Of a stretch of DNA of 49,672 nt, positions 1,053-39,117 are shown one piece after another. The stretch is from the IMG/VR virus record IMGVR_UViG_3300046507_000307, positions 1 through 49,672 of that record. The stretch is one strand, 5' to 3'. The notes beneath the pieces are model-generated. The model was not told where the DNA came from. It did not search any database and saw nothing but the letters and a program-made list of their open reading frames with translations. Position numbers and translations under genes: made by a program. The DNA comes from a virus. How positions within the stretch are numbered: position 1 is the first letter of the stretch; every line of letters begins with the position of its first letter.

Positions 1053-3446
1053 ATGCTTTCATTACCTCCCGCGCTGGCGGGATTGGCGGGCAGCCGTCAA
1101 TTCATGCTATGGACGCTTATCCCCAGCAAAAACCCGCACAAGGCGGCTCTGGGCAAAATGGACAAAGTGCCCGTTTCGCCCCACACGTTTGGCGTGCACT
1201 CCGCGCACGATGCCTCGCATTGGGTGGACCCGGCGACCGCATGCGCCCTGGCCGCCCAGGCCGGCGCCGCGTACGGCGTGGCCCTGGTGCTCAAACCCCA
1301 GGACAGTCTGTTTTTTATCGACCTCGATAACCACCGCGACCCGAGCACCGGCGATTGGACCGACCACGCCAAGTACGTGCTCAGCCTGTTCCCCGGCGCC
1401 GCGGTGGAGGTGAGCCAGTCCGGCAACGGCCTGCACATTTTCGGTCGCACGCAGCCGCTCGAACACGGGTGCAAAAACGAGGCGCTGCGCATGGAGCTTT
1501 ACACGCAGTACCGCTTTGCAGCCCTCACCGGCAACGGCATGATAGGGAACGTGGATACTGACCACACTGCCACGCTGCAGCAGTTCGCCGGGTACTTTTT
1601 CCCCCAGGTGGAAGGGCAGGACGCCAACGGCGGCACGTTCACGCTCAGCACCCAGCCGGTGCCCGAGTGGCGCGGCCCTGCCGATGACGCCGATCTACTG
1701 CGCCGGGCTCTCATGTCCAAAAGCGCAGCCGCGGCGTTCGGCGCCACCGCCAGTTTTAAGGACCTCTGGGAGGCCAACGCCGACGTGCTGGCCGTGGCCT
1801 ACCCGCCGGACGGCAACGGGGCCCGCTGGAATGAGTCGACCGCCGACGCCGCCCTGGCCGCTCAGCTCTCATTCTGGACCGGCAAGCATGGCGAGCGCAT
1901 TCACCGCCTGATGCTGCAATCCGCCCTCAAGCGTGAGAAGTGGGACCGGCCCGACTACCTGCCGCGCACTATCTGCCGCATTCTGGGCCGCCAGGGCGCC
2001 GTCTGCATGGACGAGGCCCCAGCCCCTGGCCCGGTGCCCGTCGACCTCGTGGCGGCCCCGGGCACGCCCGGCATGACGCCAGTGCAAGGCGCCACCTTTC
2101 TGGACGGGCCGGGCACGGCGGGCCTGTTCAATGGCTGCGTGTTTGTAAAGAACCAAAACCGGGCCCTCGTGCCTGGCAGCGGGCTCGTCAAGTCGGACAC
2201 GTTCAAGGTGCTGTTTGGCGGCTACACGTTCGCCATGGACGACACCAACCAGCGCACCACCCGCAACGCGTGGGAGGCGTTCACGGAGAATCAGCTCCTG
2301 CGCCCACCGATGGCCGACCGCGTTTGCTTCCGCCCCGACCTGGCGCCCCTGGCCATCGTGGACGACGCCGGTAAACGCCGGGTCAACACGTACGAGCCGG
2401 CGGTGGTGCGCACTATGGCAGGCGACGCGGGGCCATTCTGGGCCCACCTGCAAAAGATATTCCCCGACGATAGGGACAGGCTGATTTTTTGGTCCTATAT
2501 GTGTGCCACCGTACAGCACAAAGGAAAAAAATTTGCATGGGCGCCGTTACTTCAAGGGATGGAAGGTAACGGCAAGACACTTTTTAGTGCATGCGTGGCC
2601 TACGCTGTGGGCTCGCATTACACGTTCTGGCCTGATGCGCAGGAGCTGAGCAATAAGTTTAACGCATGGTTGGCAGGCCGGATTTTTATTGCGGTGGAGG
2701 AGTTCAAACACCCCGACGCCGACCACCGCGAGCTCATCGCGGAGAAAATCAAAACGATGATTTCTGGCGGGTTCGGCGTGTCTATCGAGGGCAAGGGTGC
2801 AGACCAAGTGACGGAGGAAATCTGCTGCAATTTCATGCTCACCACGAACCACAAAGACGCAGCCCGCAAGACGGCCGACAACATGCGGCGCATGGCTTTC
2901 TTCTACAGCCCGCAGCAGCAGATTTCAGACCTGGCCCGCTGGGGTATGGATGGCGATTACTTCCCCCGCCTGTACAACTGGCTCAAGGCGGACGGCTTCG
3001 CCATCGTCACGAATGAAATGCTCAATTTTGCGATACCGGAGGAGTTCAACCCTGCGGGCAGCATGCACCGGGCGCCGGACACGTCATCCACGCTGGAGGC
3101 CATCAAGCAGAGCCAGGGCGGCGTCGAGCAGCAGGTGCTGGAGGCGGTGGCTCAGGGCGTGCCGGGCTTCATGGGCGGTTGGATATCGAGCATCAAGTTG
3201 GGCGAGCTGCTGGACAACCTGCGCCAGGGCCAGCGCATCAACCTGAACAGGCGCATGGACATGATGCGTCACCTGGGGTACGAGCTGCACCGGGGGCTGC
3301 CGGACGGGCGGGTCAACAATCCGGTAATGCCCGACGCCCGCAAGACGCAGTTGTTTATCAAGGTGGGCCACCCGGACGCAGCCCTCACCGTGGGCGCGGA
3401 GATTGCCAAGGCGTACAGCGCGGCGCAGATAGTTGCGGCACGTTGA
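1053..3446 (+). CDS. Primase-polymerase / SF3 helicase fusion (DUF5906-type)
   Basis: A 797-residue replication protein. The N-terminus looks like an archaeo-eukaryotic primase domain, with FFIDLDNH (metal-binding DxD near residue 90) and SQSGNGLHIFG (near 121-131, the SxH-type motif). The C-terminal half is a D5/SF3-type helicase with Walker A GMEGNGKT near 502-509, Walker B IFIAVEEF near 544-551, and a downstream LTTNHKDA sensor-like segment. Such fusions prime and unwind phage DNA. The ATG abuts the TAA of the TetR-like gene. Polymerase and SSB are encoded in the divergent minus-strand operon, so the replisome is split between two operons. Confidence 0.9.
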   Translation: MLSLPPALAGLAGSRQFMLWTLIPSKNPHKAALGKMDKVPVSPHTFGVHSAHDASHWVDPATACALAAQAGAAYGVALVLKPQDSLFFIDLDNHRDPSTGDWTDHAKYVLSLFPGAAVEVSQSGNGLHIFGRTQPLEHGCKNEALRMELYTQYRFAALTGNGMIGNVDTDHTATLQQFAGYFFPQVEGQDANGGTFTLSTQPVPEWRGPADDADLLRRALMSKSAAAAFGATASFKDLWEANADVLAVAYPPDGNGARWNESTADAALAAQLSFWTGKHGERIHRLMLQSALKREKWDRPDYLPRTICRILGRQGAVCMDEAPAPGPVPVDLVAAPGTPGMTPVQGATFLDGPGTAGLFNGCVFVKNQNRALVPGSGLVKSDTFKVLFGGYTFAMDDTNQRTTRNAWEAFTENQLLRPPMADRVCFRPDLAPLAIVDDAGKRRVNTYEPAVVRTMAGDAGPFWAHLQKIFPDDRDRLIFWSYMCATVQHKGKKFAWAPLLQGMEGNGKTLFSACVAYAVGSHYTFWPDAQELSNKFNAWLAGRIFIAVEEFKHPDADHRELIAEKIKTMISGGFGVSIEGKGADQVTEEICCNFMLTTNHKDAARKTADNMRRMAFFYSPQQQISDLARWGMDGDYFPRLYNWLKADGFAIVTNEMLNFAIPEEFNPAGSMHRAPDTSSTLEAIKQSQGGVEQQVLEAVAQGVPGFMGGWISSIKLGELLDNLRQGQRINLNRRMDMMRHLGYELHRGLPDGRVNNPVMPDARKTQLFIKVGHPDAALTVGAEIAKAYSAAQIVAAR

Positions 3447-36843: not shown

Positions 36844-37340
36844 TTCAGCTCCCTCTGCCTATCGCACCCTGGCAGGCTGACGCCTACATCCTCACGCCGG
36901 CCCTGGTGCGCCTGCCCGCCAAAATGGACAACGCCCGGGCTCGCGTGCAGCTCCTGGCCACGGCTCTGCAGGAGTCCGAACTGGCCGCCCGCCGGCAGTT
37001 CAACAACGGACCCGCAAAGGGCCTCTGGCAATTCGAGCGGGGCGGCGGCTGCGCGGGGGTGGTGCGGCACGCCGCGAGCCGCCCGTACATGCTGGAGCTG
37101 TGCGCCGACAAGCAGATCGAGTGCACCGCGGTGGCCGTCTGGAATGAGTTGGAGCGGGACGACGTGTTTGCATGCGCCGTGGCCCGCCTGCTCTACTGGA
37201 CCGATGCCTACCCGCTGCCCCCCGTGGACGACGCGGCACACGCCTGGGACTTGTACGTGCGCACCTGGCGGCCGGGGCGCCCCCATCCTGAGAAGTGGCC
37301 CGCCAACCACGCCAAAGCCCGGGCGGTGCTGGGCGTATGA
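36840..37340 (+). CDS. Endolysin (lysozyme/transglycosylase-like)
   Basis: A 166-residue muralytic enzyme. LLATALQESELAARRQF places a probable catalytic Glu at residue 45, followed by NNGPAKGLWQFERGGGCAGVV, the substrate-groove pattern of phage lysozyme-like transglycosylases. There is no signal peptide, so export depends on the holin. It lies between the membrane protein and Rz genes with ATGA overlaps. Confidence 0.82.
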   Translation: MIQLPLPIAPWQADAYILTPALVRLPAKMDNARARVQLLATALQESELAARRQFNNGPAKGLWQFERGGGCAGVVRHAASRPYMLELCADKQIECTAVAVWNELERDDVFACAVARLLYWTDAYPLPPVDDAAHAWDLYVRTWRPGRPHPEKWPANHAKARAVLGV

Positions 37341-37705
37341 GCCCCATCCCCCTGAGCGTAACCGTAAGCGTGGCCATCGCCCTGTGCGCCAGCCTGCTGG
37401 GCAATGCGCTGCTCACCCGCAGCTACCTCGGGGCCAGGGACGACGCCACGGTGGCCGAGACAAGCCGCCAGCAGGCCGACAGCGCCGCGCAGCAATGCAA
37501 CGCAGGGGTAACCAGCTTGCAAGCTGACGCAGCCGCCCGGCTGGCCACGGCGGAGGCCGCCCGCAAGGTCGCCGAGGACGCCGCACGTACCGCCCAGGGC
37601 AAAGCTAACCGCCTGCTCGCCAAGGCCCCCAGCGTGCCCGGCAACGCCTGCGCCAGCGCACAGGCCCAGGTGGACGAGTGGCTGGCCTCAAGGCGGGCCA
37701 AATGA
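37337..37705 (+). CDS. i-spanin (Rz)
   Basis: A 122-residue protein with an N-terminal membrane segment (LSVTVSVAIALCASLLGNALL) and a periplasmic coiled coil rich in Ala, Gln and Glu, ending near two Cys and a basic tail. It is the inner-membrane spanin that joins Rz1 to fuse the membranes in the last lysis step. ATGA overlap with Rz1 at 37702. Confidence 0.85.
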   Translation: MSPIPLSVTVSVAIALCASLLGNALLTRSYLGARDDATVAETSRQQADSAAQQCNAGVTSLQADAAARLATAEAARKVAEDAARTAQGKANRLLAKAPSVPGNACASAQAQVDEWLASRRAK

Positions 37706-37989
37706 GGGCCGCGGCGGGGCTCCTGGCGCTCCTGCTGGCCGGGTGCAGCACCACGCCCACCACCGTGACGGTCAAGGTGCCTGTGCCCGTGCCGTGCATG
37801 GCCGCCATCCCCGAGCGCCCCGCCATGCCCACCGACGGGCTGGCCGCAGGCGTGGACGTGTTCACCTTTACGGTGCATGCCCAGGCGGAGATTGAGCTAC
37901 GCGAGGGGTACGAGGGCCGGCTCCTGGCCGCCCTGAGCGGATGTATCCAGCCTCCGACCGCTTCAGGTCCCGCACGGCCCGGGGGATAG
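37702..37989 (+). CDS. o-spanin lipoprotein (Rz1)
   Basis: A 95-residue lipoprotein with signal peptide and lipobox LLAGC (lipidated Cys at residue 15), followed by a Pro/Val-rich linker (VKVPVPVPC, IPERPAMP) and a C-terminal helix. Unlike classical nested Rz1 it only overlaps Rz by four bases. Its last 122 bases overlap a convergent minus-strand gene. Confidence 0.85.
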   Translation: MRAAAGLLALLLAGCSTTPTTVTVKVPVPVPCMAAIPERPAMPTDGLAAGVDVFTFTVHAQAEIELREGYEGRLLAALSGCIQPPTASGPARPGG

Positions 37990-38128
37990 CGTACTCATCG
38001 GCGATAACCTCGTGAGAGGTGTATTTCCATTTGCACCCCGTGCACTGCTTGGTGCGGTACGTTTTCTCGGGGGTCTTGAATGTCTCGAGCGTCCGCATGT
38101 CGTGGCCGCCACAGTTCGGGCAATCCAT
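37868..38128 (-). CDS. Zinc-ribbon protein (NrdR-like N-terminal type)
   Basis: An 86-residue protein. The first 45 residues read [41 protein letters not shown], a four-Cys zinc ribbon as at the start of NrdR. ATG 38128 overlaps the methyltransferase stop (TGATG); GTG 38131 is possible. The C-terminal half is basic and overlaps the Rz1 gene on the other strand, so its true end is less sure in function than in sequence. Probably a small DNA/RNA-binding regulator. Confidence 0.72.
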   Translation of the reverse strand: MDCPNCGGHDMRTLETFKTPEKTYRTKQCTGCKWKYTSHEVIADEYAIPRAVRDLKRSEAGYIRSGRPGAGPRTPRVAQSPPGHAP

Positions 38129-39117
38129 CACATCACCGCTTCAATGAAGGCTTGCGCCGCGGCTGCATTGATTGCATTGCCGTAACCGCGCAGGCGTCCC
38201 ACTCGGGCGGCAGCCCCATGAGCCAGCGGGAATGTGCCGGGTTCAACTGGCCGCCATTTTCCATCCCGGCATAGGAGCCAGTCAGCATGTGCCCACAGGC
38301 CGTTAGTCGGGCCGGCCCCGGTGTCTGCGTCAATGACCACACCGTGCGGGCTGCGCCCGCCGACAAGGCGCCCCCGGCTTGATTGGGCCCGCCGTTGCTC
38401 CCGTCCGTCGCCCTGGGTGTATTCCAGCCAGACAGCTGCCCCATTTGCGTCAAGCTGCTGCCCGACATGCCCGGGGTAATCCCCGTCCCGCCCCTCTCCC
38501 CGTCCGAGGCCGCTGGAGTCGTCCAGCCCGCTAACCTCGCCTGCTCGTTTAGCGGGCGCGAGTTGTGGCTCAAGTCGTTGCCCGGGAGGTTCGCCCCCTT
38601 GTGGTCCCTGGCCTGCGGGGTGGGCCAGCCAGTACGTCCGGTCTCGGATGTGCGGGGCGCCGACGCCCGCAGACGGAAACGCGACCGCCCCGAAGGCATA
38701 GGCCAAGGCTTCCATGTCAGTTTGTACAAGGTCGAGCCAAGGCACTGCACCGTGGCTTGCAACCTGCTCACCAAGGAGGATTCCAGGGCGCAGGACGCTG
38801 GTGAGGTAATGAAGGTTGGGCCATAAATGCCGCTCGTCATCAAACCCGCCGCCTTTGCCTGCCGCGCTGAAAGGTTGGCAGGGGCAACTAGCAGTCCAAA
38901 CTCGGCGGTTGTCAGCCCACCCAGCACGGCGGAGGGCATAGGACCAGACACCGATACCGGCGAAAAAGTGGCATTGGGTAAAGTCGCGCAAGTCATTGGG
39001 TAGTACATCCTCGATTGAGCGGGTGTCAACCACGCCGGGCGCAATGTGGCCCTGTTTGATGAGTTCGCGCAGCGTTGCGGCCGCGCCCAGGTCTATCTCG
39101 TTGTAATACGCTATCAT
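38128..39117 (-). CDS. DNA (cytosine-5) methyltransferase
   Basis: A 329-residue protein with C5-MTase motifs: FAGIGVWS (motif I, about 51-58), the catalytic [14 protein letters not shown] (motif IV, about 77-90), a GEQVAS segment in place of the usual ENV, and RDRTYWLAH (motif VIII, about 157). The C-terminus ([24 protein letters not shown]) matches motifs IX-X. It may protect phage DNA from host restriction. A second recognisable ORF runs through it in another frame of the same strand. Confidence 0.87.
38133..39008 (-). CDS. Alternative-frame ORF inside the methyltransferase gene
   Basis: A 291-residue ORF (from ATG 39008) in a second frame of the same strand. It is not random: it has [20 protein letters not shown], three GW.TP...D repeats ([27 protein letters not shown]) and [20 protein letters not shown] recognise these as a conserved phage protein type related to the target-recognition/C-terminal part of another C5-MTase family. 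It may be a true overlapping gene or a fossil frame preserved by overprinting. No ribosome site evidence. Confidence 0.5.

Follow-up and report, generated by a model that had tools for sequence, protein, structure and literature searches.

We report here on two overlapping genes, A and B, located on the minus strand of the virus record IMGVR_UViG_3300046507_000307, whose full 49,672 nucleotides (nt) we refer to as the window; all coordinates are positions in the whole window. To judge from their relatives, both frames are almost certainly real genes, and they very likely encode the two subunits of a single split phage C5-cytosine methyltransferase that would be read from the same DNA. The two genes are arranged as follows.

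38128 to 39117, minus strand: gene A, predicted C5-cytosine methyltransferase large subunit of 329 amino acids (aa), identified by PF00145, phrog_363, its structural model and M.HhaI matches in the PDB
38133 to 39008, minus strand: gene B, in the +1 frame relative to A, 291 aa from the ATG at 39008; probable recognition and motif IX subunit, identified by phrog_1008, phrog_31772 and a frame that is open in relatives and constrained

Frame B is open from just within gene A down to 38133, and the third frame contains 16 stops across the same region. An alternative TTG start at 39044 would extend B to 303 aa. A sequence-only reading of this DNA had described two recognizable proteins in overlapping frames whose ends both nearly coincide. 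This is accurate for the 3' ends, which are 5 nt apart, but not for the 5' ends, which are separated by 109 nt. The features it listed are all present: C5-methyltransferase motifs in the main frame, where a 26-residue segment and RLRGYGNAI were identified, and, in the second frame, the PTP repeats, a 42-residue stretch and the 17-residue end. Its proposal that both frames are translated, or that one was overprinted on the other, is supported at the sequence level, frame B being open and constrained in relatives, while the view that A and B are complementary halves of one enzyme goes beyond what it proposed.

The two genes consistently occur together. When A alone served as the query, each of the 80 viral loci obtained also contained B at the same +1 offset, and conversely each of the 80 bacterial loci obtained with B contained A at that offset. 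Of the 129 distinct A genes compared, a single one (L126, at residue 55) shows a +1 stop anywhere from residue 40 to residue 299 of A. A few further closures occur at residues 300 to 312, most of the 129 genes have stops before residue 40, and frame B is closed after residue 320 in all of them. Stops in the second frame of relatives, named beforehand as an observation that would speak against the overlap, are thus practically absent from the body of the frame.

It could be argued that only A is translated and that frame B stays open as a consequence of codon bias, base composition or constraint acting on the RNA, since high G+C content reduces the frequency of stops and the conserved motifs of A dictate part of B. 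However, synonymous shuffling that keeps both the A protein and A codon usage predicts 3.6 stops in the +1 frame per gene over A residues 35 to 312, and for the window gene alone the probability of having none is 0.0026. The homologous stretch of actinophage relatives (their first 100 codons), where no overlap is expected, served as a control and contains +1 stops in 47 of 53 genes. On the basis of the shuffling and this non-overlapping control, we reject codon bias as the origin of the open frame.

Constraint, whose absence beyond the main frame had been named as the other observation that would count against the overlap, points in the same direction. The 4-fold degenerate sites of A always coincide with second positions of B codons, and their identity in 37 disjoint pairs was only 0.38 upstream and 0.46 downstream of B, compared to 0.62, 0.55 and 0.89 in three parts of the overlap (Wilcoxon P = 3.6e-10 for the outside segments versus A residues 42 to 165). 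Over A residues 166 to 260, B is better conserved than A (0.236 versus 0.193), even on an alignment based on A. Moreover, at the PTP repeats, the third codon position of A is more conserved than the first, the pattern predicted when constraint acts on frame B. Both frames are thus open, conserved and constrained at the protein level in relatives, far beyond what A alone would impose, and we regard a by-product of A as hardly credible.

Protein A is a predicted C5-cytosine methyltransferase. It matches PF00145 above the cutoff (E = 2.4e-8), the match ending at profile position 164, and phrog_363 (E = 1e-77). M.HhaI was recovered from the PDB by sequence (E of about 1e-14) and by Foldseek as well. 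The following motifs were located in A.

38941 to 38964, minus strand: motif I (FAGIGVWS)
38866 to 38883, minus strand: motif IV (PCQPFS), with the catalytic cysteine
38761 to 38772, minus strand: motif VI (GEQV)
38629 to 38661, minus strand: motif VIII (11 residues)
38170 to 38196, minus strand: motif X (RLRGYGNAI), aligned to motif X of one-chain relatives with low probability

A therefore has motifs I, IV (PCQ), VI and VIII as well as the catalytic-domain fold of this class, with GEQV in motif VI instead of the usual ENV. In contrast, neither motif IX nor a recognition domain was found on the A chain by motif pattern, by the extent of the PF00145 match or in the AlphaFold2 (AF2) model. This model is confident at residues 1 to 180 and 318 to 329, which cover the catalytic domain and the helix of motif X. 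Because the predicted local distance difference test score (pLDDT) is below 50 over nearly all of residues 184 to 313, A appears to have no predicted recognition domain.

Protein B matches phrog_1008 (E = 4.6e-41) and phrog_31772 (E = 8.4e-39), both labeled DNA methyltransferase, which bears out the earlier suggestion that it belongs to a conserved phage family related to cytosine methyltransferases. No match was found in Pfam or NCBIfam. Its N-terminal half (residues 1 to 120) overlaps the catalytic motifs of A, and its recognizable features are the following.

38661 to 38720, minus strand: conserved segment of 20 residues, near-invariant in 72 relatives and the best-predicted part of the B model
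38604 to 38630, minus strand: PTP repeat 1 (GWPTPQARD)
38502 to 38528, minus strand: PTP repeat 2 (GWTTPAASD)
38403 to 38429, minus strand: PTP repeat 3 (GWNTPRATD)
38196 to 38246, minus strand: motif IX-like segment (17 residues), directly before motif X of A

The link between the two proteins is provided by relatives that carry all these elements on one chain, such as the mycobacterial prophage enzyme P0003 (L152), which combines PTP repeats, a motif IX-like segment and motif X. In hhalign, B aligns to the C-terminal part of the one-chain relatives over columns 123 to 282, that is, the PTP repeats and motif IX (probability 95, E = 4.3e-8), while A aligns to the same domain only over columns 285 to 312, corresponding to motif X and complementary to the alignment of B. 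The motif IX-like segment of B matches that of the one-chain enzymes with P = 5e-8. PF00145 was also hit by three one-chain C-terminal pieces; for the two that were resolved individually, the hit corresponded only to leftover motif VIII and not to motif IX.

We propose that A would bind S-adenosylmethionine and carry the catalytic cysteine, within motifs I to VIII, together with motif X. B, presumably translated from its own internal ATG in the +1 frame, would supply the part missing from A, namely, a variable region (the PTP repeats) with a probable role in DNA recognition and motif IX. The two chains would then assemble as a heterodimer into one active enzyme, which may methylate the phage's own DNA, most likely as a protection against host restriction.

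An internal start of B is well conserved. Of 125 genes, 104 have a frame-B ATG at codon 37 or 41 of A, and 95 of these 104 harbor a Shine-Dalgarno core within 20 nt upstream, mostly at a spacing of 8, compared to 17% for other ATGs. The window carries both conserved ATGs (39008 and 38996), with the following element next to them.

39009 to 39012, minus strand: GAGG beside the B start, immediately adjacent to the first ATG (39008) and 12 nt upstream of the second (38996)

This conservation also bears on programmed ribosomal frameshifting, by which A and B would form one fused enzyme instead of two separate chains. In actinophage relatives, one shift after motif VIII would indeed link motifs I to VIII to the recognition region, motif IX and motif X, and in one pair of loci (L195 and L198, see below) a single base makes this very join at the DNA level. 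In the window family, however, motif X is in A and motif IX is in B, so that two shifts would be needed, and the conserved internal ATG with its Shine-Dalgarno site in most relatives speaks for separate initiation. We consider frameshifting very unlikely.

Several results weigh against a split enzyme made of A and B. The hhalign match of motif X in A is short and weak (probability 1.2, E = 0.043). The end of B is in register with canonical motif IX but matches it weakly (P = 0.028), and the statistics are also weak for the motif IX-like segment of the one-chain relatives, which is likewise in register (P = 0.0018). The AF2 model of B alone is of low confidence (mean pLDDT of 59.8), and a fold search with it against the PDB and BFVD returned nothing informative, the good BFVD hits being relatives by sequence. 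Finally, the Shine-Dalgarno site available to B in the window is a weak one: since GAGG abuts the first ATG and lies 12 nt from the second, initiation of B is less certain here, and weaker, than in most relatives. Neither B nor the C-terminal part of the one-chain enzymes gave a meaningful match in sequence searches of the PDB.

Some of these observations would also fit a model in which A and B are both produced, with B acting independently as an overprinted protein (for instance, an anti-restriction or regulatory factor) instead of as a subunit of the A enzyme. B indeed has no Pfam match, its model has no known fold, and its residues 1 to 120, which lie over the catalytic motifs, have no counterpart as a separate segment in the one-chain enzymes. 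Nevertheless, its C-terminal half aligns to the PTP and motif IX part of these enzymes, which is exactly what A lacks, and B was never found without A in more than 200 loci. The poor predicted fold of B alone is, in addition, consistent with a partner-dependent protein. An independent B thus appears unlikely, and we favor the two-subunit enzyme.

Split two-frame methyltransferases have a bacterial precedent; here, the arrangement is very widespread in phages and has close one-piece versions. In M.EcoHK31I, the gene of the small subunit is reportedly nested in a different frame of the large-subunit gene, and the small subunit is said to be 176 aa long; M.EaeI is presumably another two-subunit bacterial C5-methyltransferase of this kind. 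Gene B is similarly encoded in another frame within gene A, but it spans most of it, and its product of 291 aa contains PTP repeats. M.EcoHK31I harbors motifs I to VIII and X on the large subunit and motif IX on the small one (PMC3404938). Compared by description rather than by sequence, the window shows the same layout, with motifs I to VIII and X on A and motif IX on B, the assignment of motif IX resting mainly on the one-chain relatives and the direct profile matches of motifs IX and X being weak. Unlike in M.EcoHK31I, where the recognition domain is on the large subunit, the corresponding region of A looks unstructured. M.AquI also has its catalytic part and its motif IX part on separate chains (PMC3404938), as in the window, but there the small subunit carries motif X as well as motif IX, a plan followed by the actinophage two-frame relatives L195, L207 and L211.

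The A and B families are already known: PHROGs includes both, and some genome annotations show the two genes. The same overlapping pair is found in K1ind2, where depositors annotated both ORF29 ("C-specific methylase") and ORF28 ("Mte8-like"), in Paenibacillus phage Rani (gp50 and gp51, the latter described as "g50 Internal gene") and in PhiXhv-18, with two annotated "DNA methyltransferase" genes. Literature searches for an overlapping phage cytosine methyltransferase found none, and the papers covered gave no function for B.

The one-chain methyltransferases of actinophages and mycobacterial prophages (P0003, L152) have the same PTPxAxD repeats and motif IX-like segment, with all motifs in one frame. 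Among actinophage relatives, some genes carry this C-terminal part in frame, and others carry it in the +1 frame. Likewise, several P0003 relatives have motifs I to VIII in one frame, with the repeats, motif IX and motif X shifted to the +1 frame, whereas loci closely related to them are one-chain. In a tree built from the N-terminal part common to both forms, the form changes at least five times. In the actinophage loci L195 and L198, more than 600 nt of the 3' half are identical except for one G in a G run, at about nt 560 to 570 of the gene (locus position about 3060 to 3070), and this difference converts the one-chain form into the two-frame form or the reverse. Sequencing or assembly errors could account for single switching cases. 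It is possible, if rather doubtful, that this large class of phage C5-methyltransferases repeatedly interconverts between the two forms by single-base insertions or deletions (indels).

Two other loci deviate from the usual arrangement. In L157 (Krischvirus LF73P4), both A and B shift frame mid-gene in an indel-like manner, and an assembly error and a broken gene are both possible. In L161 (Pseudomonas phage LPPA33), the A-like gene encodes only 200 aa, begins at motif I and overlaps the end of the upstream gene.

The scanned neighbors of the pair match a polymerase, an annealing protein, an exonuclease, a spanin or families without a clear function. Unlike in the restriction-modification context of M.EcoHK31I, no restriction enzyme was recognized among the scanned neighbors of this phage gene, most of which were checked against PHROGs only, and an orphan methyltransferase protecting the phage DNA is therefore likely. 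The adjacent open reading frames (ORFs) include the following.

37868 to 38131, minus strand: small cysteine-rich ORF with a weak match to a type II methyltransferase model; its GTG start overlaps the TGA stop of A (GTGA), which suggests translational coupling
37295 to 37989, plus strand: probable spanin pair in an out-of-frame overlap, the second ORF matching Rz-like spanins, beside a gene of unassigned function; likely a lysis cassette

To our knowledge, long same-strand overlapping genes whose products are both recognizable are rare in bacteria and their phages. The overlap of A and B is widespread, occurring in hundreds of phage records and many prophages, and could serve as a natural test case, with the close one-chain relatives making the direction and the cost of such overlaps testable. 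If the two forms do interconvert, the overlap would offer a traceable path from a single enzyme to one divided between two nested genes, and indels in G runs would perhaps switch the form of the enzyme. Since gene callers keep only one frame, they may lose half of a common phage enzyme with a predicted role in anti-restriction.
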